From a virus: a DNA stretch of 21,464 nt. The notes beneath the pieces were generated by a model. It was given only the letters and a program-made list of their open reading frames with translations. It was not told where the DNA came from and made no database searches. Shown in pieces: positions 1,673-21,464 of this stretch (position 1 is its first letter; the number at the start of each line of letters is the position of its first letter). Made by a program: the position numbers and the translations under genes. The DNA is taken from IMG/VR virus record IMGVR_UViG_3300046535_001143, positions 1-21,464 of that record. The stretch is one strand, 5' to 3'.

Positions 1673-2263
1673 ATGCCGACGATTGACGCGACTGTCGGTG
1701 GGCCGAACGCCAACTCGTACCTCACGCAGGCCGAGGCGAATGCGTACTTCGATACGCGCCCTCCTCTGCCGACGCCGTGGCAGACGACCGGCGATCCGGC
1801 CATCCGGCTGATCATCCAGGCGACGCGGGTCTTCGACGCCTTGGCACAGCCGTTCAAGACGCTCTTCGTCGATACCGGGCGCGTCTACTATCGCGTGCGC
1901 CCGATGTGGACGGGCGTTGCGGCCGGCGGGACGCAGCGACTGGCGTGGCCGCGTGCTGGGATGTTCGACCAGAACGGATATGCCATCAGTCCGGCGATCA
2001 TCCCGCAGACGCTGAAGGATGCGACTGCCGAACTGGCTGGGCAACTCGGGATCACTGACCGCACGTTGGACAACGACGTCATCATTCAGGGCATCAAGTC
2101 GGTGCGCGCCGGCAGCGTCGCCGTGAGCTTCGGCGACAACATCATGGCGCAGGTGATTCCCGACTTCGTGTACAACATGATTCCGATCGGTTGGCTGACC
2201 GAAGAGACATACGAGCCGGCGATGCCAGGCATCTTCGAGGTTGTTGGCGGAGATATGTCATGA
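1673..2263 (+). CDS. DnaT-like/head-tail connector (neck) protein
   Basis: The product is 196 residues. The N-terminus (GGPNANSYLTQAEANAYF) matches the opening of a phage family usually named putative DnaT-like ssDNA-binding protein, typically G-x-x-x-A-N-S-Y-x-(S/T)-x-x-E-A-x-x-Y. A helical part follows (IRLIIQATRVFDAL), then RLAWPRAG and a helix beginning IPQTLKDATAELAGQL, also typical of this family and of gp6-type connector subunits. In phage genomes this family sits between the capsid and tail genes, as here, so a structural connector role is more likely than replication. GGGAG at 1663-1667 supports the start. Its stop overlaps the next gene's ATG as ATGA. The DnaT name comes from family annotation, not from evidence of replication activity. 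Confidence 0.7.
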   Translation: MPTIDATVGGPNANSYLTQAEANAYFDTRPPLPTPWQTTGDPAIRLIIQATRVFDALAQPFKTLFVDTGRVYYRVRPMWTGVAAGGTQRLAWPRAGMFDQNGYAISPAIIPQTLKDATAELAGQLGITDRTLDNDVIIQGIKSVRAGSVAVSFGDNIMAQVIPDFVYNMIPIGWLTEETYEPAMPGIFEVVGGDMS

Positions 2264-2643
2264 GCATTCGAGATGCGTTGGTGGCGGGAGTGAAGGCTGT
2301 CGACAAAGTGACGAAGTCCGTGCAGCCGATCGTCGCCTACGAGCAAGTCATCGCCACCGACGAATTCGGCGCCTTCATGTACTCAGCGCCGATCATGATG
2401 CATGCGGTCGTGGATGACAAAGAGGTGCCTGTACGCACGCGTGAAGGCGTGCTGACGTCGGCGCGCGCCACGCTGACGTTGCTCAGCGTGCTGGAGGTCG
2501 TCATGTCGACGGGCGGCGAGGGCGTCAAGGCGAACGACCGGTTTACGTTGTCGAACGGCTATACGGGCCTCGTGCTCGACGTCAACGGAACGGTGGACCC
2601 AGGCACGGGGCATCCGTTCGCCACGACCGTCATGTTGGGATAA
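2260..2643 (+). CDS. Probable head-closure / head-tail joining protein
   Basis: The product is 127 residues. The open frame extends upstream to 2191, but the ATG at 2260 overlaps the preceding stop (ATGA) and gives a protein of the usual size for neck proteins. After a short N-terminal helix, the sequence is beta-rich (FMYSAPIMMHAVVDDKEVPV, then a T-rich strand pair and a C-terminal strand), consistent with the small beta-barrel head-closure proteins that cap the connector in siphoviruses. No enzyme motif is seen. It directly follows the connector-type gene. In the usual order it would be followed by a gp10-like gene, but that gene lies 6.2 kb downstream, beyond the sugar cassette. The assignment rests mainly on size, predicted strand content and context. 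Confidence 0.55.
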   Translation: MSIRDALVAGVKAVDKVTKSVQPIVAYEQVIATDEFGAFMYSAPIMMHAVVDDKEVPVRTREGVLTSARATLTLLSVLEVVMSTGGEGVKANDRFTLSNGYTGLVLDVNGTVDPGTGHPFATTVMLG

Positions 2644-3402
2644 ATGATCACTATCGCCTTGACGTACTTCAAGAGTCTGACTCTCGTCAACCTGATGGCG
2701 GCGCTCTATTCGGTGCGTCGGCAGGACTTCTCGCAGGTTGAAGAACTGGTCGTCGTCGACAACGATACGTCGGACGACCCTGAGCAGATTCGGTACCTCG
2801 TCGCGTCGTTCAACTTTCCCGTGCACGTGCGCGTCGTGTCGCACAAGCACGGCGACCGGACGCTCGCGCAGGCGTGGTCGACGAACCAGACCGTGCGGCT
2901 GGCGGATACCGAATGGGTCTTCTATACGCGGGCCGACTATTTACTGGACTTCAGCATCGTCTCGAAGTTTGCGGCCGTCGTCGCCAGCAAGCCGATCGGG
3001 TGGGATGGGTTCATCGTCAGCCACGGGTGCCATCTCGGCGAGGACATCACCGGGGTTGAGCAATATCCGTGGCGGGACCAGGGGACACGCGTCCTGCAGG
3101 GCATCGTCTACGACTATACGGAGATCGACTCCGGCGTCTGGATGGCACGACGCGGCACCTACGACCGCATCGGTGGATTCGACGAGCGGCTGTCGGCATG
3201 GGGACACGCGCAGACCGAGTTCCAATACCGGATGCATCGTGGTGGCGTTGAGTTCGTTCGCCTCCCAGAAACATTGTTCTACCACCCTGGTCACGGCGGC
3301 GACAAGGACATGGGATTGGCTAACCAACAGCTGGCAGAGGTAGGCACGGATCTCAAGGTCATGTGGGCGCGCTACCACGGCGAGTCGCCCTATGGACGCT
3401 AG
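2644..3402 (+). CDS. GT-A fold glycosyltransferase (family 2-like)
   Basis: The product is 252 residues and starts directly after the previous TAA (TAAATG). The first 45 residues give the beta1-alpha-beta2 core of a nucleotide-sugar transferase, ending in VVVDNDTSDD. The C-terminal half carries GGFDERLSAWGHAQTEFQYR, which resembles the acceptor-side motif GGFDE...(E/D)D..L..R of family 2/7-type glycosyltransferases. A clean DxD metal-binding motif is not obvious; TRADYLLD at about residues 96-103 occupies the expected place. There is no membrane segment, so the enzyme is likely cytoplasmic. It opens the sugar cassette and overlaps the following methyltransferase by 11 bases. Donor and acceptor cannot be read from the sequence. 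Confidence 0.75.
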   Translation: MITIALTYFKSLTLVNLMAALYSVRRQDFSQVEELVVVDNDTSDDPEQIRYLVASFNFPVHVRVVSHKHGDRTLAQAWSTNQTVRLADTEWVFYTRADYLLDFSIVSKFAAVVASKPIGWDGFIVSHGCHLGEDITGVEQYPWRDQGTRVLQGIVYDYTEIDSGVWMARRGTYDRIGGFDERLSAWGHAQTEFQYRMHRGGVEFVRLPETLFYHPGHGGDKDMGLANQQLAEVGTDLKVMWARYHGESPYGR

Positions 3403-4090
3403 ACCCTATACACGGTCGCTGCACCCGGATGACTATCTGTTCCTGTTGCGTGCGCAGCACCTACGACAGTTCGAGCAGAGCATGACGGCATTTGGCGTGC
3501 CGCATCGCGAGTGGCACGAGCATCGCCTATGGGAGTACGCGTCGATCCTGCAGCAACTCGAAGAACTCAAGGTCCCGGAGAACGCCGAGATGGTCGACGT
3601 GGGATCTGGCGCCAGCTTCTTCGACCCCTATTGCGCCATCAACTACTCGGAACTGTGCTGCGTCGACAACATGCAGTATGGCGACATCACCGACATGGTC
3701 TCGGCGCAACGCGCTCGCTACGGCGTCAAGCTGCCACTCTACGATATGCCGCTCGAGAACATGGCGGCGTTCAAGGACGGCACGTTCGACGTGACGATGT
3801 GCATCAGCACGATCGAGCATGCAAGCGACCATGAGGCGGCGTTCAGTGAGCTGGTGCGGATTACGAAGCCTGGCGGCTACTTGTTTATCACGTCAGACTA
3901 CTTCCGAGACTTGGTGCACTTCGAGCAGTCGGCGTCGCGCGTCTATCAAGTGACGCCGTATATGCAGGCGTTCGTGCTCGCCCTGCCGACGCGGTTTCCA
4001 GTGGCGTTCGTCGGCGGGACAGACCTCGACTACCGCGGAGATTTCGTGCACAACTATTCGTTCTGCAACATCTGTCTGAGGAAGCTATGA
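3392..4090 (+). CDS. Class I SAM-dependent methyltransferase
   Basis: The product is 232 residues. It has the Rossmann-type methyltransferase signatures in order: motif I VDVGSGASFF (about 68-77), an acidic residue after the second strand (CCVDNM), and the FDVTMCISTIEH segment followed by LVRITKPGGYLFIT. That arrangement is typical of the Methyltransf_11/25-like group. The N-terminal 60 residues are helical and charged. It overlaps the upstream glycosyltransferase by 11 bases, and its stop overlaps the next start (ATGA), so the three enzymes are probably translationally coupled. The likely substrate is a sugar, nucleotide-sugar or glycan, judged by neighbours only. A DNA or protein substrate cannot be excluded, though no DNA-methyltransferase (D/N)PP(Y/F) motif is seen. 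Confidence 0.8.
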   Translation: MDARPYTRSLHPDDYLFLLRAQHLRQFEQSMTAFGVPHREWHEHRLWEYASILQQLEELKVPENAEMVDVGSGASFFDPYCAINYSELCCVDNMQYGDITDMVSAQRARYGVKLPLYDMPLENMAAFKDGTFDVTMCISTIEHASDHEAAFSELVRITKPGGYLFITSDYFRDLVHFEQSASRVYQVTPYMQAFVLALPTRFPVAFVGGTDLDYRGDFVHNYSFCNICLRKL

Positions 4091-5310
4091 CTGAACGGAT
4101 GTGCCGCGCCTGCGGGTTGTCGCTCATCTCGGTGCTCGACCTTGGCAACCTGGCCTTGTCCGGATTCCCGATAGGTGACGAAGCACCGGACTTCTCGCCA
4201 CTTGACCTCTGTCGCTGCTCGGCGTGTGGGCTCGTGCAGTTGCGGCACACGGTCGAGCCCGACGTTCTGTTCAAGCAGTACTGGTACAAGAGCGGCGTCA
4301 ACGAGACGATGCGCGCGGAGCTGCAGGACGTGATGTACGACGCGCTGGTGCAACTGGGATACCTCCTTGCCGGTGACGTCATCGTGGACGTGGGAGCGAA
4401 CGACGGCACGCTGCTCGCCTGGGCGCCGCGAGGCGTGACGCGCATCGCGTATGAGCCGGCAGAGAACCTGCAGGAGAGCCTACGCAAGCACTGCGACGTA
4501 CTCTATGCGGAATACTTTCCAGGCAAGCAACCGCTTGAACCTGGCAGCGTGTCGTTGCTCACGTCGATCGCCTGCTTCTATGCGGTCGACGACCCCATCA
4601 AATTCGTCAGTGCCGTGAACGAGGCGCTGTCGGCACGCGGCATTTGGGTCCTGCAGTTTCAGGACCTGCACCAGATGCTGATGGCGACGGCGTTCGACGA
4701 CATCTGCCACGAGCACCTGTTCTACCCGAGCCTCGCGTCGATCATGCGCATGCTTGAACCATTCGACTTGGAAGTCATCGACGCTGAGCGACGGGAGATC
4801 AACGGCGGGAGCCTGCGCGTAACGGTAGGTCGTCGGTGGCGACACGTCTCGCCGAACGTCAAGGCGATGACGATCGCAGAATATCGATGCGAGCACTTCA
4901 TGACGCTGCGGGACTTCGCGCAGCGCGTCATGAAGACGCGCGAGAAGATCTACCAGGCGCTCGACACGCACCGTGGTCCGATCGACCTCTACGGTGCGTC
5001 GACGAAAGGCAACACGCTGCTGCAGGTCTGCGACCTCGGGCCGAAGGACATTCGTCAGGCCTGGGAGCGGTCGCCGGAGAAGTGGGGCCGCAAGACGGTC
5101 ACCGGCATTCCGATCGTCAGCGAGGAGTCGGGACGTGCCAATCCGCCGGCCATGCTCTTCGTCGGCATCTGGCAGTTTCGCGACGCGATCATCCGGCGTG
5201 AGGCGGCGTATCTAGCGCAGGGCGGCAAGCTGCTGTTCCCGCTCCCGAGAGTTGAGGTTATTGATGTTCACAAAGGTGTCGGTGCTCATTCCCACTCGGC
5301 ATCGGCTTGA
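4087..5310 (+). CDS. NovU/TylCIII-type sugar C-methyltransferase
   Basis: The product is 407 residues, the full length usual for this three-domain family. The N-terminal zinc-binding domain has C6-x2-C9 and C44-x2-C47 pairs with the usual DLG and FP neighbours. The central SAM domain has motif I VDVGANDGTLL at about 100-110, and FDDICHEHLFY around residues 203-213 matches the conserved FDxIYHEH block that holds the catalytic-base His. The C-terminal domain carries YGASTKGNTLL (302-312), the hallmark GA(S/T)xKGNT motif. Known relatives C-methylate NDP-deoxysugars (for example novobiocin and tylosin sugar pathways). No NDP-sugar dehydratase or epimerase is visible here, so the substrate would have to come from the host or from genes outside the window. 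The 3' end overlaps the next gene by 47 bases. Confidence 0.88.
   Translation: MTERMCRACGLSLISVLDLGNLALSGFPIGDEAPDFSPLDLCRCSACGLVQLRHTVEPDVLFKQYWYKSGVNETMRAELQDVMYDALVQLGYLLAGDVIVDVGANDGTLLAWAPRGVTRIAYEPAENLQESLRKHCDVLYAEYFPGKQPLEPGSVSLLTSIACFYAVDDPIKFVSAVNEALSARGIWVLQFQDLHQMLMATAFDDICHEHLFYPSLASIMRMLEPFDLEVIDAERREINGGSLRVTVGRRWRHVSPNVKAMTIAEYRCEHFMTLRDFAQRVMKTREKIYQALDTHRGPIDLYGASTKGNTLLQVCDLGPKDIRQAWERSPEKWGRKTVTGIPIVSEESGRANPPAMLFVGIWQFRDAIIRREAAYLAQGGKLLFPLPRVEVIDVHKGVGAHSHSASA
5254..5257 (+). promoter_or_regulatory. Shine-Dalgarno GAGG deciding the start at 5264
   Basis: GAGG lies 6 bases before the ATG at 5264, inside the end of the upstream gene. An in-frame TTG at 5252 could also start the protein but has no comparable signal. 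Confidence 0.5.
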
Positions 5311-5917
5311 ACGGTTGGGTCAGATGATGATGTCCTACTGCGAAACAGCGGGCGAGTGCTCTGAACTAGTGTTCCGCGTCGATGACGATGATACGGACAC
5401 GCAGCGCTACCTGAAAGATATCAGCGACATGGCGCCGTGCCGCGTCGTCGTCGGTCCACGCAAGAAGGGCTATGCGAGCCTCGGTGACTTCTTTAACGAG
5501 TTGTATGCGGCATCGACCGGCGACGTGCTGATGTGCGGCAACGATGACATGGTCTTTCAGACGTCCGGCTGGGATGCGAAGATCCTGGAGGAAGCCAACC
5601 GCTACCCCGATGGGATCTTCGACTTCGGCGTCGAGACGCACAACGCCGCGAACTTCCCCTTTGCCACGGTCTCGCGCAGCATGTGCGACCGGCTGGGGTT
5701 CTTCTTCGACCCCCGCATGTTCTGGGGCGACATCTTTTGGCGCGACGTGACGTCCCGCTTCGACCGAGCCATTCGACTGCCAGACATCCACATCGAGCAC
5801 GATTGGGCGGGGTTTCGTCCCGACGAGGTGTTCCTGGAAGGGGAGTCGACGCGCCGGGCAGACCACCTGGCCTTCCACGCGCAGGCGGTGAACGAGGCCG
5901 TGGAGAAGCTGAAATGA
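5264..5917 (+). CDS. GT-A fold glycosyltransferase-like protein
   Basis: The product is 217 residues from ATG 5264 (221 from the alternative TTG 5252); GAGG six bases upstream favours the ATG. The N-terminus VSVLIPTRHRLERL is the classic first strand and turn of GT-A enzymes. FRVDDDDTDT follows as the second strand with an acidic cluster, then MCGNDDMVF fills the DxD-like metal and nucleotide-binding position. The region around WGDIFWRDVTSRF corresponds to the acceptor-side acidic (E/D)D...R motif. It is shorter than typical family 2 enzymes and lacks membrane segments. It is embedded in the cassette with a 47-base overlap upstream and a 4-base overlap downstream. Specificity is unknown. Confidence 0.72.
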   Translation: MFTKVSVLIPTRHRLERLGQMMMSYCETAGECSELVFRVDDDDTDTQRYLKDISDMAPCRVVVGPRKKGYASLGDFFNELYAASTGDVLMCGNDDMVFQTSGWDAKILEEANRYPDGIFDFGVETHNAANFPFATVSRSMCDRLGFFFDPRMFWGDIFWRDVTSRFDRAIRLPDIHIEHDWAGFRPDEVFLEGESTRRADHLAFHAQAVNEAVEKLK

Positions 5918-6564
5918 AACCGATCTACGTCTGCGTGCCGGTGCTGCGACGGTACGACTTGCTCCGTCAGATGCTCGTGTCGCTGGAGCCGAGCACCGTC
6001 GAACCCTCTGGCATCTACGTCATCGACAACGGGCGCGACGCCGAGCGGGTGAAGGCGGCGACCGACAGGTGTCCGTTCCCCGTCGTCATCTGGACGCCAG
6101 AGGAGTCGATGGGCATCGCCGAGTCGTGGAATTGGTTCATCGACCACGCGCCAGAGGAGCGTCTCATCACGAACGATGACATCGTCTTCGCGCCCGAGTC
6201 GCTCGAAGCCTTCGGCAAGACGACGACCGACATCTGCTGGTCGCGCGAGGCGGGCTTCTCGTGCTTCATCATCCGCGACAGCTGCGTGAAGAAGATCGGC
6301 TACTTCGACGAGTCGATCTCTCCGGGCTATGCCTACTTCGAGGACGAGGACTACGCGCAGCGGATCAACCGCAAGGGCAAGGGGCCTGAGTTCGCGACCT
6401 CAGGCGACTGCGCCTCTGGCCTGGAGCACTTGCACAGCCAGACGATCTCGGTGGCGTCGCCCGAGGAGCTCGAGGACCACCATCGTCGGTTCTGGGTCGC
6501 GCGCTACAACTATGTCATGAAGTGGGACCTGCAGAAGGAGTTCAACATGGACAAGAACCTATGA
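5914..6564 (+). CDS. GT-A fold glycosyltransferase (family 2-like)
   Basis: The product is 216 residues. The frame stays open upstream to 5683 over the preceding gene, but ATG 5914 overlaps the previous stop as ATGA and begins at the expected first strand (MKPIYVCVPVLRRYDLL). The core shows IYVIDNG, then SMGIAESWNWFI, the segment before the metal site that is typical of family 2 enzymes. LITNDDIVF is the DxD-equivalent, and IGYFDES...YFEDEDYAQRI is the C-terminal acceptor and catalytic-base block. All elements are intact, making this one of the best-supported transferases of the cassette. It is probably cytoplasmic, as no membrane helix is visible. Acceptor and sugar are unknown. Confidence 0.8.
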   Translation: MKPIYVCVPVLRRYDLLRQMLVSLEPSTVEPSGIYVIDNGRDAERVKAATDRCPFPVVIWTPEESMGIAESWNWFIDHAPEERLITNDDIVFAPESLEAFGKTTTDICWSREAGFSCFIIRDSCVKKIGYFDESISPGYAYFEDEDYAQRINRKGKGPEFATSGDCASGLEHLHSQTISVASPEELEDHHRRFWVARYNYVMKWDLQKEFNMDKNL

Positions 6565-7091
6565 TCACGTTTCTCGTCCCGACCATCGGTCGTCCCTCGC
6601 TGCTGCACACGCTGCGGTCGATCGAGACGTTGCCTGGCGACGAAATACTGGTCGTCGGCGGCGTCAACCCGATGTGCACCGATCCGCGCGTGCGGTGCAT
6701 CCCGTGCAAACCAGGCGGCGACTGGGGACACGCCGAGCGCAACTACGCGTCACCAATGGCTAAGGGGCAATACATCGCGCACATTGACGATGACGACGTC
6801 TTTGCGCCGGGACACCGCGTGTTGATGCAGGACGCGATCGAGAAGACGCCTGGCTTGCCCATCTTGTTTCGCATGCAGTATCCGAACGGGTATCGGCTCT
6901 GGCAAGAGGAGAAAGTCTATTGTGGGAATGTTGGGACGCCGATGTTCTTGATCCCGAACCAACCCGAGAAGTGTGGGACGTGGGGATCGTTCGTCGGCGG
7001 GGACTGTTCGTTCCTTGAGACGAGCAAGTGGGCGGCGGAGGACTACGTGTGGCGGCCGGAGGTCACGGTGCTGTTGGGGCACAACGTTTAA
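6561..7091 (+). CDS. Short GT-A fold glycosyltransferase
   Basis: The product is 176 residues, small for the family. The start at 6561 overlaps the previous stop (ATGA); the longer frame from 6522 only shadows the upstream gene. The N-terminus ITFLVPTIGRPSLLHTLRSI is a textbook family 2 opening. NYASPMAKGQYIAHIDDDDV gives the helix plus the DxD-type metal site (about residues 61-80). The C-terminal third contains GTWGSFVGGDCSFLE, where GGDCSFLE may play the role of the catalytic-base region. It ends 18-25 bases before the acquired HNH gene. Whether the 3' end was trimmed when that segment arrived cannot be judged from this sequence alone. Confidence 0.75.
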   Translation: MITFLVPTIGRPSLLHTLRSIETLPGDEILVVGGVNPMCTDPRVRCIPCKPGGDWGHAERNYASPMAKGQYIAHIDDDDVFAPGHRVLMQDAIEKTPGLPILFRMQYPNGYRLWQEEKVYCGNVGTPMFLIPNQPEKCGTWGSFVGGDCSFLETSKWAAEDYVWRPEVTVLLGHNV

Positions 7092-7109
7092 CCAATTAGC
7101 GTGGGGCTA

Positions 7110-7616
7110 ATGACTATGAGAGATGTGTATCATCGTCGATTTTTATCACTTGAAGAAAAGATTGCTACGTTACTGGCTCCGCCAAACGAACGCGGGTGCC
7201 GACTGTGGCTGGGGCGAAAGAACCTTCAAGGTCAGACACACCCGAATGGCTACGCAACTATCAAGATTGATGGAAAGTTCAGACGCGTGTCTCGAGTGCT
7301 TTGGGAATTGCGGAATGGACCAATTCCTGAAGGAATGTTTGTCCTTCATTCATGTGATTGTCCTCCATGCTGCGAAGAGTCGCATTTGTTTATTGGCAGT
7401 CATCAAACCAATAGCGATGACAAAGTTTTTAAAAATAGGCAAGCACGCGGCCACCGGATGCTAGATGAATCTGGTGCGCGAAGAGTTCTTCTACTGCACG
7501 ATGAAGGCTGGACACTTAAAGCGATAGGTAATGATGTCGGTGTTTCTGCGCAAGCTGTTTGGCTGATTGTCCATAGGATTAATTGGGCGCATCTGCAAGA
7601 GGGAGTTGGGCTATGA
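7110..7616 (+). CDS. HNH homing-type endonuclease with HTH tail
   Basis: The product is about 168 residues from ATG 7110. GTG 7101 and ATG 7116 are alternatives; GGGG at 7103-7106 fits ATG 7116 best by spacing, so the exact start is open. The central domain matches phage free-standing HNH nucleases: RGCRLWLG, NGYATIKIDG, LWELRNGPIPEG, then VLHSCDCPPCCEESHLFIGS and TNSDD, giving the His, second-His and Asn positions of the beta-beta-alpha-metal site. The C-terminal 45 residues (ARRVLLLHDEGWTLKAIGND and following VSAQAVW) look like a helix-turn-helix. G+C is much lower than its surroundings: bases 7141-7200 contain 29 G/C of 60 and 7381-7440 only 21 of 60. It is probably a selfish mobile gene rather than part of the sugar pathway. 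Confidence 0.85.
   Translation: MTMRDVYHRRFLSLEEKIATLLAPPNERGCRLWLGRKNLQGQTHPNGYATIKIDGKFRRVSRVLWELRNGPIPEGMFVLHSCDCPPCCEESHLFIGSHQTNSDDKVFKNRQARGHRMLDESGARRVLLLHDEGWTLKAIGNDVGVSAQAVWLIVHRINWAHLQEGVGL
7601..7605 (+). promoter_or_regulatory. Shine-Dalgarno GGGAG for the GT4 gene
   Basis: GGGAG lies 7 bases before ATG 7613, inside the end of the HNH gene. It supports 7613 over the upstream in-frame start at 7583. Confidence 0.5.
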
Positions 7617-8836
7617 ACAAAAAACTCTTGTGGGTCGGTGACGGCCCAGATACTCCAAGCGGGTTCGGATTGGCCACTCGAAAGACCATAGAATCTTTAG
7701 ACTCGCATTTTGGCGGTCCTTATGACGTTACGGTGCTTGGAATAAATTTCAGAGGCGATCCTGGAACCGTTCCATACCATGTCTATGCCGCCGCAGCCGG
7801 TGGGGACATGCTCGGCATCAACCGCCTAATCTGGATGTGCGCGAACTTCGAGCCCGACCTCATCGTGCTGCAGAACGACCCGTGGCAGATTCCGCTTTAC
7901 CTGCGGCAGTTGCAGCAGTATCCCGAGCATCGGCACATTCCGGTCATCGCGTCGCTGGCCGTCGACGGCAAGAACCAACAGGGCATGAACCACCTCAATG
8001 GCTTGGCGCTGGCCGTCTTCTGGTCCGAGTTCGGGCAGCGCGAGGCGCGCAAGGCCGGGTATACGGGGCCGAGCACGGTCATCCCGTTGGGCGTCGACCT
8101 TGACACCTACTACCCGATCGATAAGACCCAGGCGCGGCTGAACCGCAAGCTCGACTTCGTCAAGGACAAGTTCATCGTCGGCAACGTCAACCGCAACCAG
8201 CCGCGCAAGCGGTGGGACTTGACGATCGAGTACTTCGCCGAGTGGGTCAAGGCCGAGAAGATCAAGGACGCGCGGCTCTACTTCCACACGGCGCCGACGG
8301 GCGACGTCGGCTGCGACGTCAAGCAGTTGGTCAAGTATTACGGCATCCTCGACATGCTGCTGCTGCGCGAGCCGCAGGTTTGGTACGGCGACTCCGACGA
8401 GGCGATGCGCGAGACCTACAACTGCTTCGACGTGCAGGTCAGCACGACGCAGGGCGAGGGGTTCGGCCTGACGACGTTCGAGGGGATGGCGTGCGGCGTG
8501 CCGCAGATCGTGCCTGATTGGGCGGCCCTCGGTGAGTTAGTCAAAGGTGCCGCGACGCTGATACCTTGCACGACGACGGCCATTGGGTGGCCGTACCTGA
8601 ACATCATCGGCGGCATCGCCGATAAGGGAGAGTTCATCAAGTCGCTGTCTCACCTGTATCACGATCGCAACGCCCGCGAGGACTCTTCGTTGCTCGGGTT
8701 GGCTCGCGCCTCGGAAGATAAGTATCGCTGGTCGACCATCGGCGAGCGGTGGGTGAAGGAACTGGCGCAGATCGAAGCCAAGCACACCGAGATCGAGTGG
8801 AAGGACCTGGGACGTCCAGAAGAGGTGACCACGTGA
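7613..8836 (+). CDS. GT4-type glycosyltransferase (GT-B fold)
   Basis: The product is 407 residues, the normal length for family 4. The start at 7613 has GGGAG seven bases upstream and overlaps the HNH stop (ATGA). The N-terminal Rossmann domain opens LLWVGDGPDTPSGFGLATR, the Gly-rich loop region. VIPLGVDLDTYYP (156-168) is the inter-domain signature P-x-G-V-D. GNVNRNQPRKRWD (190-202) carries the Arg/Lys pair that binds the donor diphosphate. EGFGLTTFE (282-290) is the E-x7-E motif, followed by GMACGVPQIV. It is probably a retaining cytoplasmic transferase using a nucleotide-sugar donor. The first 55-60 codons are A+T-rich like the adjacent HNH gene, while the rest matches the phage, so the gene is a composition mosaic. 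It is the last enzyme of the cassette. Confidence 0.9.
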   Translation: MNKKLLWVGDGPDTPSGFGLATRKTIESLDSHFGGPYDVTVLGINFRGDPGTVPYHVYAAAAGGDMLGINRLIWMCANFEPDLIVLQNDPWQIPLYLRQLQQYPEHRHIPVIASLAVDGKNQQGMNHLNGLALAVFWSEFGQREARKAGYTGPSTVIPLGVDLDTYYPIDKTQARLNRKLDFVKDKFIVGNVNRNQPRKRWDLTIEYFAEWVKAEKIKDARLYFHTAPTGDVGCDVKQLVKYYGILDMLLLREPQVWYGDSDEAMRETYNCFDVQVSTTQGEGFGLTTFEGMACGVPQIVPDWAALGELVKGAATLIPCTTTAIGWPYLNIIGGIADKGEFIKSLSHLYHDRNAREDSSLLGLARASEDKYRWSTIGERWVKELAQIEAKHTEIEWKDLGRPEEVTT

Positions 8837-9267
8837 AGCCGGACGCCGCCGCGATGATCGCGAAGCTGCAGAAGGTCCTGAAGATCTGGCCGACGCGCGT
8901 CGGCGCGGCCCTCTACCAAGAAGGGCAGATCATCATGACCGAATCGAAGAAGCGCTGCCCGGTGGCACCCGACGGAGGAACGCTGCGGGCGAGCGGGCAG
9001 GTGCATCCGCCTGAGTACGCCGGGCCGCACATCTCGGTGACGCTGTCCTACGGCGGCGCGGCCGAAGCCTACGCCATCGCCGTGCACGAGCACCTGTCGG
9101 AGCACTCGCCGCCCTCGTGGAAGGCGGCCGAGGCGGCTGGACGGGGCATCCATTGGAACGTGCCAGGCACGGGGCCGAAGTTCCTCGAAGGGCCGATCAA
9201 CGAAGCGCAGCCGACATTGGCGGCTCGAATCGCACAGCGGATCAACTTGAACGAGGTGCAGGTCTAA
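8833..9267 (+). CDS. HK97 gp10-like neck/tail-completion protein
   Basis: The product is 144 residues. The GTG at 8833 overlaps the previous stop (GTGA); the longer frame from 8749 shadows the upstream gene. The pattern is that of the HK97-gp10/minor structural family: an N-terminal helix pair, then KKRCPVAPDGGTLRASGQVH (family consensus PVdTG.LR.S), a YGGAAEAYAIAVHEHL strand-turn (consensus Y...vE.G), and a C-terminal GPKFLEGPINEAQPTLAARI helix (consensus P.Fl..a......). Such proteins sit at the head-tail interface in siphoviruses. It is where the conserved neck order resumes after the sugar cassette. The next ATG overlaps its stop by one base (TAATG). Confidence 0.8.
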   Translation: MKPDAAAMIAKLQKVLKIWPTRVGAALYQEGQIIMTESKKRCPVAPDGGTLRASGQVHPPEYAGPHISVTLSYGGAAEAYAIAVHEHLSEHSPPSWKAAEAAGRGIHWNVPGTGPKFLEGPINEAQPTLAARIAQRINLNEVQV

Positions 9268-9671
9268 TGCCCTTCCTCGATGAACTCGCAGATCGGCTTG
9301 TCGCCGCAGGCGTCGGCACGCGCAGTGCCAACATCTTCCTCGGGGCTAATGCGCTTATCCCGCAGGGCGACGGGCCGTTCTTGACGGTCATCGAGACGGG
9401 CGGCATGGCGCCGACGCGCATCCAGAACAAGGCGAGCGTGCATACGCAGCAGCCGACGGCGCAGATCGCCGTGCGCGCCGCCCGTTATAACGTGGCGCGG
9501 ACGATGAGCAAGGCGGCGTATGACGCGCTCGACGGCGTCTTCAACACGACCCTCAGCGGCACGTTCTATCAGCGCATGGTCGCACGACAAGAACCGACGG
9601 ACATCGGATTGGACAGCGTGGGGCGTCCCGTCATTGTCTTCAACGTTGAAGCACAAAAGGAGCCCTCGTAG
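9267..9671 (+). CDS. Tail terminator / minor capsid-type protein
   Basis: The product is 134 residues. ATG 9267 shares one base with the previous TAA; the longer frame from 9117 is a shadow. The sequence MPFLDELADRLVAAGVG, then IFLGANALIPQGDGPFLTVI and PTAQIAVRAARYNVARTMSKA, then a C-terminal region with YQRMVARQEPTDIGLDSVGR, matches the small family found just before tail tube genes and annotated as minor capsid or tail terminator. These proteins form the hexameric ring ending tube growth. No enzyme motif is visible. After it comes a 57-base untranslated gap with a good ribosome site for the tube gene. Context and pattern agree; the exact family name is from memory. Confidence 0.7.
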   Translation: MPFLDELADRLVAAGVGTRSANIFLGANALIPQGDGPFLTVIETGGMAPTRIQNKASVHTQQPTAQIAVRAARYNVARTMSKAAYDALDGVFNTTLSGTFYQRMVARQEPTDIGLDSVGRPVIVFNVEAQKEPS

Positions 9672-9728: not shown

Positions 9729-10163
9729 ATGGCGATCTCAGGACACGGAACAAAAGTCGCGCGCGCGCCCGCCGCCACGCCGACGGTCTTCACCGACATC
9801 GCGGAGATGAAGGACGTCACCCCGCCAGAGTTTTCCCGCAACGAGTTCGACGCGACGACGCAGAACCTCAACATCGACACCTACGTGGTCGGTGTGCTGC
9901 GTCGCAGCGGATTCACGATGTCGCTGAACTTCCTCGACACCGACGGATCGCACGACCACCTGACCGGTTTGCTCAAGGCGATGATCACGGAACCGCCGCC
10001 GGTGGACGGCTACCGGATCACGTTCCCGAGCGGCGTCATCTGGGTGATGAGCGGTCAGGTGTCGAAGTTTGCGCCGAAGTATCCGGTGGACGGCCTGCAG
10101 GAAGCCGCGGTCACGATTCGACCGACGGGCCGCATGACCATCAACGGGATCGTCATCGGCTAG
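9729..10163 (+). CDS. Major tail tube protein
   Basis: The product is 144 residues. Its place between a terminator-type gene and the G/G-T chaperones is the standard slot for the tail tube subunit. The sequence is beta-rich with a long loop, as expected for the tube beta-sandwich: TVFTDIAEMKDVTPPEFSRN at the start, then NLNIDTYVVGVLRRSGFTMS, then HLTGLLKAMITEPPPVDGYR as the helix-strand core, and VDGLQEAAVTIRPTGRM near the end. DGLQEAAVTIRPTG resembles the final strand of lambda-gpV-like tube proteins. It has its own AGGAG site in a 57-base gap, and a structured 98-base spacer follows it; these are the only two sizeable gaps in the window, which fits independent high expression. A 307-residue overlapping frame (9722-10645) is a shadow over this gene. 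Confidence 0.8.
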   Translation: MAISGHGTKVARAPAATPTVFTDIAEMKDVTPPEFSRNEFDATTQNLNIDTYVVGVLRRSGFTMSLNFLDTDGSHDHLTGLLKAMITEPPPVDGYRITFPSGVIWVMSGQVSKFAPKYPVDGLQEAAVTIRPTGRMTINGIVIG

Positions 10164-10986: not shown

Positions 10987-13900
10987 ATGGACATCGGGTC
11001 ACTCACTGGCGAAATCACCCTCGAAGATAAGCTCTCTGGCGCCCTCGACAGCGTCACCGAGAAGATCAAGGACTTCGCCGGAGAGCTGGAAGGCTTGACG
11101 GGCATCGCGGCCATCGGCTTCGGCGTGCTGACGGCCGCGGTGCTCGCGACGACGGCGAGCATCGTGAAGCTCGGCGAAGAAGGGTCGACGCTTCTAGGGG
11201 TGGAGACGGCCTTCGATCATCTGGCCGAGGCGGCCGGCACGACGGGGGATTCGCTACGCGAGCGTCTCACGACGGGGCTCAAGGGAACGGTAGACGAGAT
11301 GGATCAAATGCAGGCCACGCAGCGCCTGCTCGTCTCGGGCTTCAAGCTCACAAATGATCAAGCGCAGTTACTGGCCGAAACGGCACGCGAGTTGGGCAAG
11401 GCGTTCGGCGTCGACGCAGCCTCTGAACTGGAGACGATGAGCACGGCGTTGGCGACCGGCCGCACGCGGACGCTGGCTCTACAGGGCGTCGTCGTCGACG
11501 TCAAGAAAGGCGAGGAAGAGTTCGCCAAGTCAATCGGCACGACGGTCGACCAACTGAACGCCGAAGGGCTCCTCGAGGGCAAGCGCATTGCCATCATGGA
11601 GGGCGTCAAGGCGAAGCGCGACGCGCTCGGCGTCTCAGAACTGAGCTTCAAGGAGATGGTCCAGCAGACGAACACCGCCATCAAGGATTGGGGCGAAAGC
11701 CTCGCCAAGTCCGTCGCCTCGTCACCCGACGTACTGCAGGCGTATCAGGCGATGAAGCAGGCGTTCGTCAATACGTTCGGCGGCGACTCGCAGGACATGC
11801 TCAAGACGATCACCGGGTGGATCAACACCTTCGCCAAGGGCGTGACTGAGAACGGCCCGACGGTCGTCAAGGTGCTCGGAGACGTGCTCAGCGGCATCAA
11901 GAGCGTCTTCGATTTCCTCGCCGCGCACGAGACGGCGATCAAGAACCTCGCCGTCGGCGTCGCGGCCTACGCGGCGGCGTGGGAACTGCTGACCTTTGGC
12001 GGGACGATCGTCACCGGCGTCATCGCAGGCCTCAAGGCCATCCAAGTCTCGGCCACGCTGCTCGAAGCCAGCTCGCTCATCGGCCTCATCACGCCCATCG
12101 GCCTCGTCGCGGCCGCGGTCGCAGGGCTCGCCGTCGCGGTCTACAACTTCAACAAGCAGATTGCCGACATGCAGAAGCCCAGCACGACGGGCGACCTGCT
12201 CGACAGCCTGAAGACGAAGGCCAACGGCGCCGGCCTGACCATCGACGACCTGAACAAGAAGATGGCGGCATTGGGCAAAGGGCCGCTGGAAGGCACGACG
12301 CTCAACATCCCAGGCATCGGAGCCAAAGGCGCCGCGCCGACCGACAACTCGAAGTTCATCAAGGACCAGTCCGACAAGATCGAGGCCGCGACGTCGGCGA
12401 GCATCGCCAAGACGCAGGAACTCTGGGACCAATACTTCACGACGCTCGACAAGATGAACCTCGACTCTGTCGGCGCGCAGGTCCTGGCCATCGACCGCAA
12501 GGAGACGGCCGAGGTCGCCGCCCTCGACAAGAGCAAGAAGTACAACCAGGATTACCAAAACCAGCTGCAGGCGATCGAGGCCGTGGCCGCGGTCAACCGC
12601 GCGGCGATCTTCGAGGACCTGCGCAAGAAGAACGTCGCAGCCGACGAGAAGGCGCTGGCCGAGAGCCAGGTGGCGTTGGTCGCCGACGGCGAGAAGCGCC
12701 TCGCCTTGAGCACGTCGACGTTCGACAAGCTCACGGCGGCGGCCGAGAAGGAGCAGCGCGCGCTCGAGGACGTCACGACGACGGGCCTCGACCGTCAACT
12801 GCTCGACATCCAGCGCTCGGCCGAGGACCAGATTGCCGCGCTCGGCGCCGTGCCGCAGGACGAAGCCCTGGCGTCGCTCTGGCAGGCGAACGTTGACAAG
12901 ATCCACGCCATCCAGCAGCAGCAGGTCGACAACCTCTACGTCGACAACGCCGCGATGGTGAAGAACTCCTACGATGCGCTGCAGGCCATCGCCGACAAGA
13001 ACTACACGACGTGGATGAAGATGGCGGCTGATCCGGACATCTATTCCAAGCAGGCCGTCCAGGACATGAAGGACATCGCCGACGCCTCGCAGCGTGCGGC
13101 GTTGGGCATCCAGAAGAGCCTCGGGGATGACCTCTTCACCGCGTTGAAAGGCGTCCCGAACACGATCGCGGACGCCTTCAAGAGCGGCGGCAGCCTGCTG
13201 AGTGCGGCCGAATCGCTCGGCAGTCAGTTCGGGGCCATCTTCGGCAAGCACATCGGCACGTCGATCTCCGACGCCGTCTCTGGCCTCGGGTCGCTGGCTG
13301 GCCCGATCGGCGCGGCCATTGGCGCGCTCGCCGGTCCGCTCATCGGCCTGCTGGCCAAGATCGGCGGACCCTCGCAGAACGAGCTGGCCGCGCGCTCGAC
13401 GTTCGCCGACTTCCAGAAGCAGTTCGGCACGCTCCCCCAGACGATCGACGCCGTGGGCGCCGCGTACGCCCGCATGGGGCTGACAGGTACCGAGGCCCAG
13501 CGCGACATCCAGCGCGCCCTCGACGCGACGCACGTCAGCGCCGCGGCTGAGGCCTCGGCCCTCGACACGATCAACCTCGTGCTCGACGCCGACAAGCAGC
13601 GCACGCAGGACCTCACCGACGCCACGAACGCCGTCATCACGGCGGGCAAAGGCTACTCTGGGCCGCTCCCGGCGGCCCTTCAGGTGACCATCGATCAGAT
13701 CATGAACGCCTCGGGCGCGACCGACGCCATGAAGACGGCGCTGCAGGGCGTGCTCGACCAGGCTGAGCCAGACTACAAGAAGCTCACCGCGCTGGCTGGC
13801 ACCTACGGCCTCTCGCTGGCGGACCTCGGGCCGAAGTTCGAGCAGGCGGACCTCGAAGGACGTTCGAAGCAGATCTTCGACGACTTCACGGCCCTCACGC

Positions 13901-18271: not shown

Positions 18272-18768
18272 TGGCGTGGACGACACCTCGCACGTGGATC
18301 TTCAGCGAGCGGCCTAGCGCCGCCACGATGAACGTCTATATCCGCGACAACATGAACTATCTGCACGACCAGTTCGGGCAGTGGCTCCCGATGCCCTTCG
18401 ATGCAGGCAATTTTGGCACGGACGGGCCTCAGTGGATTGTCGCCGTTGGAAACGTGCAGCAAAATCAATTTCAACTATTCAACGGCGCGCTCGTACTGTG
18501 GTCATTCTCTGTGGGCGGCACGAGGCTCGTGGCCCCGTGCACGTACCTCTACATTCGATCGCCGGTCGCTGGAGGCCTCCATCCGTTTCGTACGACCGAG
18601 CAGATTGACCGCACCGCCTACGTCGATAGCTTCCCGGCCCCGGCGATCGAATGTCTCTGTGGTCCGTTGAGCATCGACATCTTTCGCATCTGGCGGATTG
18701 ACGGGCTGCAGTTCACCGCTGGCACGGCGCTCGGCGTGTACTTCAACGTCTTCATGAGGATCGGCTGA
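18271..18768 (+). CDS. Small tail-tip/fibre protein, paralog 1 of 3
   Basis: The product is 165 residues from GTG 18271, which shares its first base with the preceding TAG; the longer frame from 17956 is a shadow. It begins (M/V)AWTTPRTWIFSERPSAATM and continues NVYIRDNMNYL. This signature, AW(T/S)xPRxW...xxMNxxxRDNxNxL, is seen in many small phage tail proteins and recurs in the next two genes. The rest is beta-strand-rich and aromatic, with VWRxDG- and LxxYFNxFMxI-type ends shared by the paralogs. It has no membrane segment or enzyme motif. A receptor-binding or tail-tip adhesin role is inferred from position and repeat. Confidence 0.7.
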   Translation: MAWTTPRTWIFSERPSAATMNVYIRDNMNYLHDQFGQWLPMPFDAGNFGTDGPQWIVAVGNVQQNQFQLFNGALVLWSFSVGGTRLVAPCTYLYIRSPVAGGLHPFRTTEQIDRTAYVDSFPAPAIECLCGPLSIDIFRIWRIDGLQFTAGTALGVYFNVFMRIG

Positions 18769-19268
18769 TGGCGTGGACCGTGCCTCGCACGTGGGTCACC
18801 GGCGAGTTGGTCTCGTCGTCGATGTTCAACACCAACGTCCGAGACAACTCGAATTTCCTCTTTACGAACTTCGGCGTGTGGGCGCAGGTTCCGTTCAATG
18901 CGGCGAACTTTACTGGTGACTCAGGTGGGTGGACAGTCCATGCCGGTAACGTCACGGCAAACTTCTTCGAGGTCGTCAACCAAACGCTGTACTGGATTTT
19001 TGCCGTTAGCGCTACGACCCTCGTCGCGCAGGCAACATTTCTGGAGATTGTTTCTCCTGTCCTGGGAGCCTATCACCTGACGGGGAGTGCTTCGCAGGCC
19101 AAGCGCGTCTCCATCCTTGGCGATGCTGGCGGTCAATATGCTTGTGTTACAGGGCCTCTGAACTCGACGACGATGGGCGTCTGGCGCGTCGACGGACAAT
19201 TCTTTCAACCCAACGGGGCCTCGCTGTCTCTATGGTTTAACACCTTCTGCCAGGTGCTGGCCACCTAA
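18768..19268 (+). CDS. Small tail-tip/fibre protein, paralog 2 of 3
   Basis: The product is 166 residues. ATG 18768 shares one base with the previous TGA (TGATG). It begins MAWTVPRTWVTGELVSSSMF and continues NTNVRDNSNFL, clearly homologous to the genes on both sides. Other aligned blocks are the PF(D/N)AxNF strand, GNVxxNxF, GVWRVDGQFF and the C-terminal LWFNTF. Overall identity to the neighbours looks modest outside the N-terminal 35 residues, which fits an old duplication with a conserved attachment part and a diverged exposed part. The function is likely the same type of tail-tip or receptor-contact role, by inference. Confidence 0.7.
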   Translation: MAWTVPRTWVTGELVSSSMFNTNVRDNSNFLFTNFGVWAQVPFNAANFTGDSGGWTVHAGNVTANFFEVVNQTLYWIFAVSATTLVAQATFLEIVSPVLGAYHLTGSASQAKRVSILGDAGGQYACVTGPLNSTTMGVWRVDGQFFQPNGASLSLWFNTFCQVLAT

Positions 19269-19816
19269 TGGCTTGGTCAACGCCCCGCTCGTGGATCCCA
19301 GGCGAGATCGCGACGGCTGCGATGATGAATGCCAACGTGCGCGACAATCAGAACGCGCTGCTGGCCCTCTTCACATCGTGGGTGGACGTGCCATTCGACC
19401 CGCTGGACTTCACGGCTGACGATGGGTTGGGCGGCGGTGGAGCCTCGTGGACGCAGTCGACGTTAAGCATCACGCACAATGCGTACCTCGTCGTGCAGAA
19501 CACGTTGTTCTGGTCGTTCGGCTGCAACGGATCGTTCTGCTCGGGCGGGTCCGGAAACGACCAAATCCAATTCTTGTTCATTCGGCAACCGACGCGGCTG
19601 ACACGCAATTTTGCGACCAGCGAGGAAATTGGTTTAGTCAGTTACTTGAATTGTCAAGGGCAGATTGCTGGCGTCAACATGACCGAGTGGCTCTGCCGCC
19701 CGATTTCTGGCGCGCAGTTGCGTATGGAGCCGGGTAACAGCGTTCCGTTCACGGCGACGCACGGCTTCAACAACCCGCTGACGCTGTACTTCAATATCTT
19801 TATGTGGATTACATGA
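19268..19816 (+). CDS. Small tail-tip/fibre protein, paralog 3 of 3
   Basis: The product is 182 residues. ATG 19268 shares one base with the previous TAA (TAATG). It begins MAWSTPRSWIPGEIATAAMM and continues NANVRDNQNALL, matching the two upstream genes. It is longer because of a Gly-rich insertion (DDGLGGGGASW) and a GCNGSFCSGGSGND loop in the middle, in the part expected to be exposed. The C-terminus LTLYFNIFMWIT aligns with the end of paralog 1. Its stop overlaps the next ATG (ATGA). It is probably a variant adhesin or tail-tip subunit; target and stoichiometry are unknown. Confidence 0.7.
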   Translation: MAWSTPRSWIPGEIATAAMMNANVRDNQNALLALFTSWVDVPFDPLDFTADDGLGGGGASWTQSTLSITHNAYLVVQNTLFWSFGCNGSFCSGGSGNDQIQFLFIRQPTRLTRNFATSEEIGLVSYLNCQGQIAGVNMTEWLCRPISGAQLRMEPGNSVPFTATHGFNNPLTLYFNIFMWIT

Positions 19817-21464
19817 AACAACTATTTCTCCTGGCTTTCCTCACATCCGCGTGCGCGACATTGCCGCCAGGCCCCGTCGTGCCGGCTCCGACGCCGACGA
19901 ATCCGGCGCTCGGCGTCGTGGGATCATACCGAGGCCCGCTGGACGCGGCGACGTTGTCCACCCTCGCGACGACGAACCTCACGCTGCGCGCAGGCGTGGC
20001 AACCGCTCAGCAGGCGCAGCAGATCGTCGATTCCGTGAAGCCTTACCCCTCGCTGCACGTCCTCTGGCTCGTGGAGGCGGCAGACGACAGCATCGTCAAA
20101 GCCATCGAGCCGATTGCGCAAGCGTCGCTGCAGACGTGGGGCATCGAACTGGGGAACGAACTGGACCTCGGAGGACTGTCCTCGAAGCAATTCGGCGACT
20201 GGGTCCTGCGCAACCACACGTGGCTGCGAGCGGCTGGTTACACCGGGCGCGTCGTCAGCGGCGGGATCTTCGCCGTGCAGCCCGAGACGCTGAAATGGCT
20301 GACGGACGCAGGTTCTCAGAACTGGCCGGCGGACATCATCATCGCCGTGCACCGCTACGGCGACCCTGACAGCAGCGACAAGTACACGAGCCGCGACGCC
20401 GAGAACCAAGCGATCCTCCAAGCCACGCGCGGGCATCAGGTGGTCGTCACCGAGTTCGGCTACCCGACGCACACCAGTGCTGATGAGGCGTGGGCGGCGG
20501 AAGCAGTCAAGAGGGACATCAGCTGGTTTGGCAAGCTCGCCGCGCCACTCATCACGCAGTATCAGTTGCTCGACGGGCCTGGCACCGGGAACATCGACCA
20601 CTTCGGCATCAAGACCGTCGACGGGCGGTGGAAGCCGGGCGCGGCGACCCTCGGGATCATGCCGCGGCCGCCGCCCTCGACGTTGTCTTTTGATCTGGTG
20701 GCATGTAAAGACGCGTTCGTCAACAATTACTGCAATGGTCCTGCTGGGTCGGTCTTCTCCATCGAAGTTGCCACCGAAGTCTGGAAGACGTTCAACGGCG
20801 ACGGAAACGGGTATGCGTGGGCCTCTGGCATTCCTGATATCACGGCTTCGCGCATTCGCATCCAGACGCCTGGATACCAAGATTTTGAAGAGCACATCAA
20901 TCCACGAGGGTTAAGCGACACGAACGCTGCAGGCACTCATAACCACTGGGATGTGGTTCCAATCGCGCCACCCCATGTCGACCCGACGCAGTTCTCGCTG
21001 AACGACAACGCTGCCATTCGTGGGGCCATGTGGACGGTTCGAGGACCGTGGCCATACGGCCCTCGACCGGGACAGGCTGACAACATCACTGCGCTGGAGT
21101 TCATCTACTCGTACGGCGATCCGAATCAACCTTTCGTGCTGAACGAAACGCAGCGCCAAATGATCGCGACCTACAAATCGCACGGCTATACGCACAATGC
21201 ATTTGGTCCACCGAATGCCCAGAGCTACCACGGGCAGTACCCGGACACCGACTTCACGACGTCGCCTCAGGCGTTCGACAAGTGGCTCGACTGGGTCCAG
21301 ATGTTCTGGGACGTCGGGCTCAAGCCGGTCGTCTTCCTGCACCCCGATGGCGCGACGCTCGACCAGACGAAGGCGCTGCTTGAGCCGCTCATCCGCGCGA
21401 ACCTCGCAAAGTCGCAGCACATCCTGCGCATCGTCGTGCCGACTGGGTGGGAGCCGACGAAGTA
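19813..21464 (+). CDS. Lipobox-bearing clan GH-A-like glycosidase (3' end outside window)
   Basis: The frame runs from ATG 19813 (ATGA overlap) off the window end; 550 codons are visible. Residues 1-19, MKQLFLLAFLTSACATLPP, form a lipoprotein signal with LTSAC lipobox (Cys14), followed by a Pro-rich linker. Residues about 33-285 resemble a clan GH-A TIM barrel: GIELGNELDL places Glu116 after Asn as acid/base, HRY at 180-182, and VVVTEFGYPT places Glu214 as nucleophile, 98 residues apart. A beta-rich linker region (about 290-400) follows, then a second barrel-like domain (RGAMWTVRGPWPYG from about 404, later IVVPTGWEP). It probably cuts or binds a surface glycan. A lipoprotein signal is unusual for a virion protein, so it may instead be host-envelope-anchored. 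Activity and location are inferred. Confidence 0.72.
   Translation, partial: MKQLFLLAFLTSACATLPPGPVVPAPTPTNPALGVVGSYRGPLDAATLSTLATTNLTLRAGVATAQQAQQIVDSVKPYPSLHVLWLVEAADDSIVKAIEPIAQASLQTWGIELGNELDLGGLSSKQFGDWVLRNHTWLRAAGYTGRVVSGGIFAVQPETLKWLTDAGSQNWPADIIIAVHRYGDPDSSDKYTSRDAENQAILQATRGHQVVVTEFGYPTHTSADEAWAAEAVKRDISWFGKLAAPLITQYQLLDGPGTGNIDHFGIKTVDGRWKPGAATLGIMPRPPPSTLSFDLVACKDAFVNNYCNGPAGSVFSIEVATEVWKTFNGDGNGYAWASGIPDITASRIRIQTPGYQDFEEHINPRGLSDTNAAGTHNHWDVVPIAPPHVDPTQFSLNDNAAIRGAMWTVRGPWPYGPRPGQADNITALEFIYSYGDPNQPFVLNETQRQMIATYKSHGYTHNAFGPPNAQSYHGQYPDTDFTTSPQAFDKWLDWVQMFWDVGLKPVVFLHPDGATLDQTKALLEPLIRANLAKSQHILRIVVPTGWEPTK

Follow-up and report, generated by a model that had tools for sequence, protein, structure and literature searches.

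A phage neck-gene slot with a conserved GT4 glycosyltransferase and exchangeable sugar-chemistry genes, a candidate site of virion glycosylation

That phage-encoded glycosyltransferases (GTs) located among structural genes can glycosylate the virion is a principle already known from mycobacteriophages. According to three reports (PMC12363180, PMC11600133, PMC12619734), phages Corndog, Che8 and Myrna add sugars to proteins of their own virions, namely capsid and tail tube, and in cluster O mycobacteriophages three GTs in tandem follow an O-methyltransferase. Here, we analyzed a 21.5-kb virus record from IMG/VR (IMGVR_UViG_3300046535_001143; its full 21,464 nucleotides are referred to as the window), in which a sugar-modification cassette (2644-8836) sits between the genes for a head-closure-like protein (HCP) and a gp10-like neck protein. 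The cassette genes, in the order GT2a, MT1, C-methyltransferase, GT2b, GT2c, GT2d, HNH and GT4, are all on the plus strand. An earlier, sequence-only reading of this DNA had recognized the common strand and the two methyltransferases, both of which are confirmed, but it had counted six GT-type genes where Pfam and PHROG support five (four GT2, one GT4), and it had overlooked the HNH endonuclease.

Relatives were retrieved in three ways (by GT4, by the gp10-like protein and from bacterial genomes), after which their genes were assigned by means of profiles derived from the window plus a few annotated relatives. A GT4 relative is encoded by 239 candidate stretches, the best 80 of which were examined. 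A gp10-based sample, independent of GT4, comprised 36 dereplicated loci in which gp10 was at least 40% identical and the DNA upstream could be seen; immediately before gp10 came GT4 in 28 of them, the head-closure gene, i.e., an empty slot, in 7 and another gene in 1. A second set, partly selected by GT4, was made up of 50 dereplicated slots whose two flanks could both be seen: 37 contained GT4, which was the last gene before gp10 in all but one of these (36/37); 11 were empty, with HCP and gp10 touching; and 2 held one short unknown open reading frame. The sequences across the junctions were inspected for empty as well as occupied sites. At the empty sites (including L025, L031, L114, L132, L145, L147 and L153), HCP and gp10 are separated by gaps of about -33 to 0 nucleotides, and genes 31-32-33 of Arthrobacter phage Edmundo form an uninterrupted series of stopper, gp10 and terminator. 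The cassette thus interrupts a conserved neck order, as had been claimed, and the comparison of junctions in relatives with and without it, a check proposed in the sequence-only reading, supports insertion.

Comparison of the occupied slots showed that GT4 and its place are what they have in common, while the sugar chemistry varies. The smallest consist of GT4 alone (L136, L168) or of a methyltransferase followed by GT4 (L205, L209, L135). Among the larger ones, type A (the window, L006, L011, L166, L183) has the order GT2a-MT1-C-methyltransferase-GT2b-GT2c-GT2d-GT4 with small differences, and type A' (L017, L024, L029, L065, L116, L117, L159, L162, L176, L201) has a similar order, with a B12-binding radical S-adenosylmethionine (SAM) protein (PF02310 and PF04055) taking the place of the C-methyltransferase; the nearest solved relative of this protein is an AprD4-type enzyme. 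Type B (L026, L028, L030, L178) comprises a cupin, a DegT aminotransferase, a GT, an unknown gene, a methyltransferase and GT4; perosamine synthase is the nearest relative of the aminotransferase (E 1e-83), and a PDB search with the cupin gave no match. Type C (L016, L023, L105, L123, L191) runs from DegT through a hexapeptide acyltransferase, an unknown gene and a GT4-like gene to GT4; the nearest match of the acyltransferase is PDB 3vbp (E 1e-15), a member of the anthrose N-acyltransferase AntD series. In L026, L029, L030 and L032, a pair of tail-tube-like genes precedes the head-closure gene rather than following the terminator, and the GT4-gp10-terminator block is intact. Outside the neck slot, MptE-like proteins (PF01973) are encoded on the contigs of L006 (G001, 12596-13120) and L011 (G002, 4160-4618); this domain occurs in Maf flagellin glycosyltransferases as well.

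For the constant member, GT4, the predictions indicate an intact GT-B enzyme with the features of family 4 (retaining). Both glutamates of its EX7E motif (E282 and E290) and the phosphate-binding R/K pair (R198-K199) are invariant among 19 aligned sequences, and its AlphaFold model (pLDDT 88) adopts a GT-B fold whose best PDB match is B736L of chlorovirus NY-2A (3oy2; TM scores 0.79/0.82). B736L is also the nearest solved protein by sequence (E 1e-8, 19% identity). At the equivalog level, NCBIfam offered no name for GT4, MT1 or the C-methyltransferase. The GT4 family is also found among the head genes of phiPsal1, S-CBS4 and Mae-JY09, phages that are cultured or named; S-CBS4 and Mae-JY09 have known hosts by name, and phiPsal1 has reportedly been lost. 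Two relatives (L036:4422-6470 and L018:778-2973) encode GT4 with a long N-terminal extension; that of L036 resembles a SAM methyltransferase domain by eye and may represent a fused methyltransferase-glycosyltransferase. Homologues from Verrucomicrobiaceae (38-42%) were considered as a prophage clue to the host and rejected because no phage neck genes adjoin them, so that they point to no host. These chromosomal homologues (L066-L075) adjoin a gene of 529-564 amino acids, which encodes a Ser/Thr kinase in L067, the sole one checked. The only match with a full neck in a metagenome-assembled genome comes from a Sulfuricaulis bin (L065), which is weak evidence of a host.

In pairwise distances, GT4 is correlated with the terminator and the tail tube protein (Spearman, 0.29 and 0.39), somewhat less than structural proteins are with one another (0.39-0.56), which fits co-inheritance of GT4 with the structural genes along with some exchange. 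The correlation with gp10 is weak (Pearson, 0.20), probably due to the shortness of gp10. One route of exchange is seen in the window itself, where the HNH gene adjoins the GT4 start codon. This gene is shared with a near-identical contig (L005); L006 and L008, both close relatives, lack it, and L008 keeps the 25 bases flanking the site. Moreover, the first ~180 bases of GT4 are only ~60% identical to L006 and L008, compared with ~90-97% over most of the remainder. HNH appears to be a mobile gene that was inserted recently where GT4 begins. Within the region 7093-7790, which takes in HNH and the 5' end of GT4, this end (~180 bases) lies in a low-GC stretch as a divergent allele and looks like a co-conversion tract; the encoded N terminus is more similar to that of L013.

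Among the other cassette enzymes, conserved acidic motifs are present in GT2b (N93-D94-D95), GT2c (N87-D88-D89) and GT2d (D76-D79); in GT2a, R96-A97-D98 stands where D-x-D is expected and is kept in 15 homologues. GT2c homologues lie near the GT4 gene in S-CBS4 and phiPsal1. The O-methyltransferase-like MT1 may act in sugar O-methylation. The C-methyltransferase has all three domains of its family (zinc-binding N-domain PF08421, SAM domain PF13489 and C-terminal Methyltransf_14 domain PF08484) and can be aligned over its full length with the MtmC-type D-mycarose 3-C-methyltransferase 4rv9 (residues 5-393; E 4e-38) and with TcaB9 (5t64; E 5e-34). Its E209-H210, conserved in nine homologues, aligns with the Glu-His pair of both enzymes, which in TcaB9 is catalytic. 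Because NDP-hexose 3-C-methyltransferases of this family (TylC3/TcaB9/MtmC) work on NDP-4-keto-6-deoxysugars (NDP, nucleoside diphosphate), the cassette probably tailors a sugar nucleotide, contrary to the earlier statement that it held no sugar-nucleotide gene. The accompanying idea that the cassette draws on host donors holds in part: no epimerase-family gene (PF01370) was found in 17 large viral relatives, so the initial sugar-nucleotide steps would be the host's, but the set does include a tailoring enzyme of its own.

As had been noted earlier, most genes are coupled by 4-base overlaps, of which there are five (4087-4090, 5914-5917, 6561-6564, 7613-7616 and 8833-8836), in addition to one of 11 bases and one of 47 bases; the HCP stop codon (TAA, 2641-2643) directly abuts the ATG of GT2a. 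These overlaps and this junction suggest that the cassette is one operon, likely co-transcribed with the structural genes, and promoter- and terminator-like sites within the cassette were no more frequent than in shuffled sequences. The claim that the enzymes are made with the virion proteins is thereby supported as far as likely co-transcription goes; their expression would be late.

Our preferred reading, which we consider rather probable, is that the slot is an inherited site of a late-made virion glycosylation module in which GT4 is the core and probably the initiating enzyme and the other genes vary the glycan. Made along with the virion, GT4, a soluble cytoplasmic GT-B enzyme, would most likely add the first sugar, or a sugar common to all members, to a virion protein during assembly, a role suggested by its being the sole constant member and able to stand alone. 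The GT2 enzymes would then extend the glycan and MT1 would cap or O-methylate it, with the C-methyltransferase producing a branched deoxysugar nucleotide from the host's NDP-4-keto-6-deoxyhexose. By swapping the outer part for other chemistry (the B12-radical-SAM enzyme or 4-aminosugar genes), relatives may vary the particle surface. Virion glycosylation is the best supported role because these genes are firmly tied to the neck and the mycobacteriophage precedents modify capsid and tail tube; by analogy, the tail tube protein is a possible acceptor. The slot statistics, the tracking of structural genes by GT4, the translational coupling, the lack of excess terminators and the lack of membrane segments in any cassette protein (simple hydropathy scan) all argue for it, as do the sugar-tailoring enzymes that fill the same slot in relatives, the presence of this GT4 family among the head genes of phiPsal1, S-CBS4 and Mae-JY09, and the proximity of GT4 to chlorovirus B736L. 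Several observations pull the other way: GT4 correlates only modestly with structural genes, pointing to some exchange; GT4 homologues lie outside the structural block in phages TJE1 (upstream of the terminase) and S-EIVl; GT islands beside a pelagimyophage neck gene have been read as serving host O-chain modification (PMC7029224); and the acceptor of B736L is itself unproven (PMC9614988).

The main rival, which we regard as unlikely, is that the enzymes alter a host surface polysaccharide (O-antigen or capsule) late in infection, barring other phages or preventing released particles from sticking to debris. The GT2, DegT, cupin and hexapeptide enzyme families are typical of O-antigen pathways, and the pelagimyophage islands, near neck gene gp14, were so interpreted (PMC7029224). 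In the window cassette, however, there is no flippase, polymerase or membrane-spanning Gtr-type protein (Pfam gave no hit to GtrA flippase, GtrB or membrane-spanning Gtr, as expected of serotype-conversion gtr cassettes), nor, as mentioned, any membrane segment. Linkage to virion genes is tight, and expression together with the virion would come late for superinfection exclusion.

It is improbable that the GTs decorate modified bases of phage DNA. Hypermodification of DNA by viral GTs has precedent (Pyle 2024, as cited in PMC12619734), and thymidylate-synthase homologues of 338-373 amino acids, a possible hydroxymethyl source, are encoded by 5 of 17 large cassette-bearing viral contigs and by the Sulfuricaulis-bin phage contig (G017, G018, G019, G022, G025 and the L065 contig; 6 of 18 records). 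Yet the other 12 of the 18 records, among them the two large relatives nearest to the window, of 58 and 49 kb, have no such homologue, with the reservation that records may be incomplete and the window is a fragment; a C5-cytosine methylase homologue was found in only 1 of 17 viral records; and cassette presence is uncoupled from base-modification genes, its neighbors being neck rather than replication genes. Least probable of all is a mere HNH-driven insertion hotspot with passenger metabolism genes of no common function, for although HNH has inserted at the window's GT4, whose 5' end is altered, and HNH-profile genes lie inside or close to those cassettes carried by L174, L218 and S-CBS4, most slots lack HNH, the recognizable content of independent cassettes is overwhelmingly glycan-related, and GT4 keeps both its place and, in the 19 sequences, its catalytic residues.

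The features of the window are listed below. The flanks named in the sequence-only reading (connector, head closure, gp10, terminator) are borne out by profile matches for the adaptor and the terminator; the head-closure gene is assigned by synteny only and gp10 by synteny and fold. HCP matched nothing in Pfam or PHROG, and in relatives with an empty slot its profile picks the gene that immediately precedes gp10. For the gp10-like model, Foldseek gave no match at E 0.001, and a second structure aligner alone singled out a neck protein (SaPI1, 9mu2_P; Z 8.0, next row 3.0).

Features of the neck region and cassette in the window
Feature	Position	Strand	Basis
Head-tail adaptor Ad1, left neck flank	1673..2263	+	phrog_477, E 2e-21
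Head-closure-like protein (HCP), left of slot	2260..2643	+	Position and synteny alone
GT2a glycosyltransferase	2644..3402	+	PF02709, E 7e-8; PF00535, E 5.5e-5
MT1, class I SAM methyltransferase	3392..4090	+	PF08241, E 1.9e-13; 11-base overlap with GT2a
Sugar 3-C-methyltransferase-like protein (zinc domain, methyltransferase, C-terminal domain)	4087..5310	+	PF08484, E 5e-28; PF08421, E 4e-11
GT2b glycosyltransferase	5264..5917	+	PF00535, E 1.5e-7; phrog_14945, E 8e-18
GT2c glycosyltransferase	5914..6564	+	phrog_29879, E 9e-22
GT2d glycosyltransferase, short (176 amino acids)	6561..7091	+	PF00535, E 1.7e-5
HNH endonuclease	7101..7616	+	HNH_3, E 2e-8; phrog_1872, E 6e-21
GT4 glycosyltransferase, adjoining gp10	7613..8836	+	phrog_2170, E 3e-35
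gp10-like neck protein, right of slot	8833..9267	+	Synteny with Arthrobacter phage Edmundo gene 32; predicted fold
Tail terminator	9267..9671	+	PF12691, E 2.5e-10
Tail tube protein	9729..10163	+	PF16461, E 6e-8

Elsewhere in the window, identity to L005 and L006, both near relatives, is only 44-58% in a gene upstream of the neck (2-649), compared with 79-100% in its neighbors; this seems to be a fast-changing virion gene. Downstream of the tail genes lies a tandem trio of similar genes (18274-19816; N termini MAWT/S-PR-W...), and the protein encoded at the end of the structural block (19804-21462) bears a lipoprotein-like signal (LTSAC), has a long body that belongs to no recognized family and gave no Pfam hit.

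Finally, the sequence-only reading had proposed glycosylation, of the virion or of the host surface, by an undescribed system. A glycosylation role remains the best reading, and the general idea was already described for mycobacteriophages. We found no published description of a fixed slot in the neck that holds a core GT4, of its spread in uncultivated phages or of exchangeable C-methyl and aminosugar modules. A tblastn search with GT4 and GT2c against 50,697 phage records returned no mycobacteriophage at E 1e-5, in a collection that lacks the Corndog record and without searching the other GTs. As in mycobacteriophages, phage-encoded GTs are grouped with a methyltransferase, here inside the structural gene block; unlike them, the present family has a fixed neck slot, a conserved GT4 and a sugar C-methyltransferase, B12-radical-SAM or aminosugar genes. 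Pontimonas phage phiPsal1 and Synechococcus phage S-CBS4 carry a homologous GT4, GT2c and methyltransferase in the head block (S-CBS4 with an HNH as well), but this set is smaller, shares 25-33% identity and is placed after the major capsid gene or after the portal; the records and publication give family names and no further function. Chlorovirus B736L resembles GT4 as a virus-encoded glycan enzyme and its closest solved structure, but comes from a eukaryotic virus. The pelagimyophage host recognition cluster is likewise a variable, GT-rich island within the structural region, adjoining a neck gene, but it belongs to T4-like myoviruses, spans ~45 kb with tail fibers and is read as modifying the host O-chain (PMC7029224). 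More tentatively than the reading preferred above, and with some doubt, we suggest that a widespread clade of uncultivated phages has inherited a neck virion-glycan locus in which a core GT primes a structural protein and exchangeable outer modules (C-branched and 4-amino deoxysugars) diversify the surface; if so, particle surfaces would be diversified much as O-antigen loci diversify bacterial surfaces. As far as the literature examined shows, proven virion glycosylation is confined to a few actinobacteriophages; a fixed slot that can be aligned in its occupied, minimal and empty states, together with one core enzyme, would make glycosylated virions predictable from sequence across uncultivated phages.

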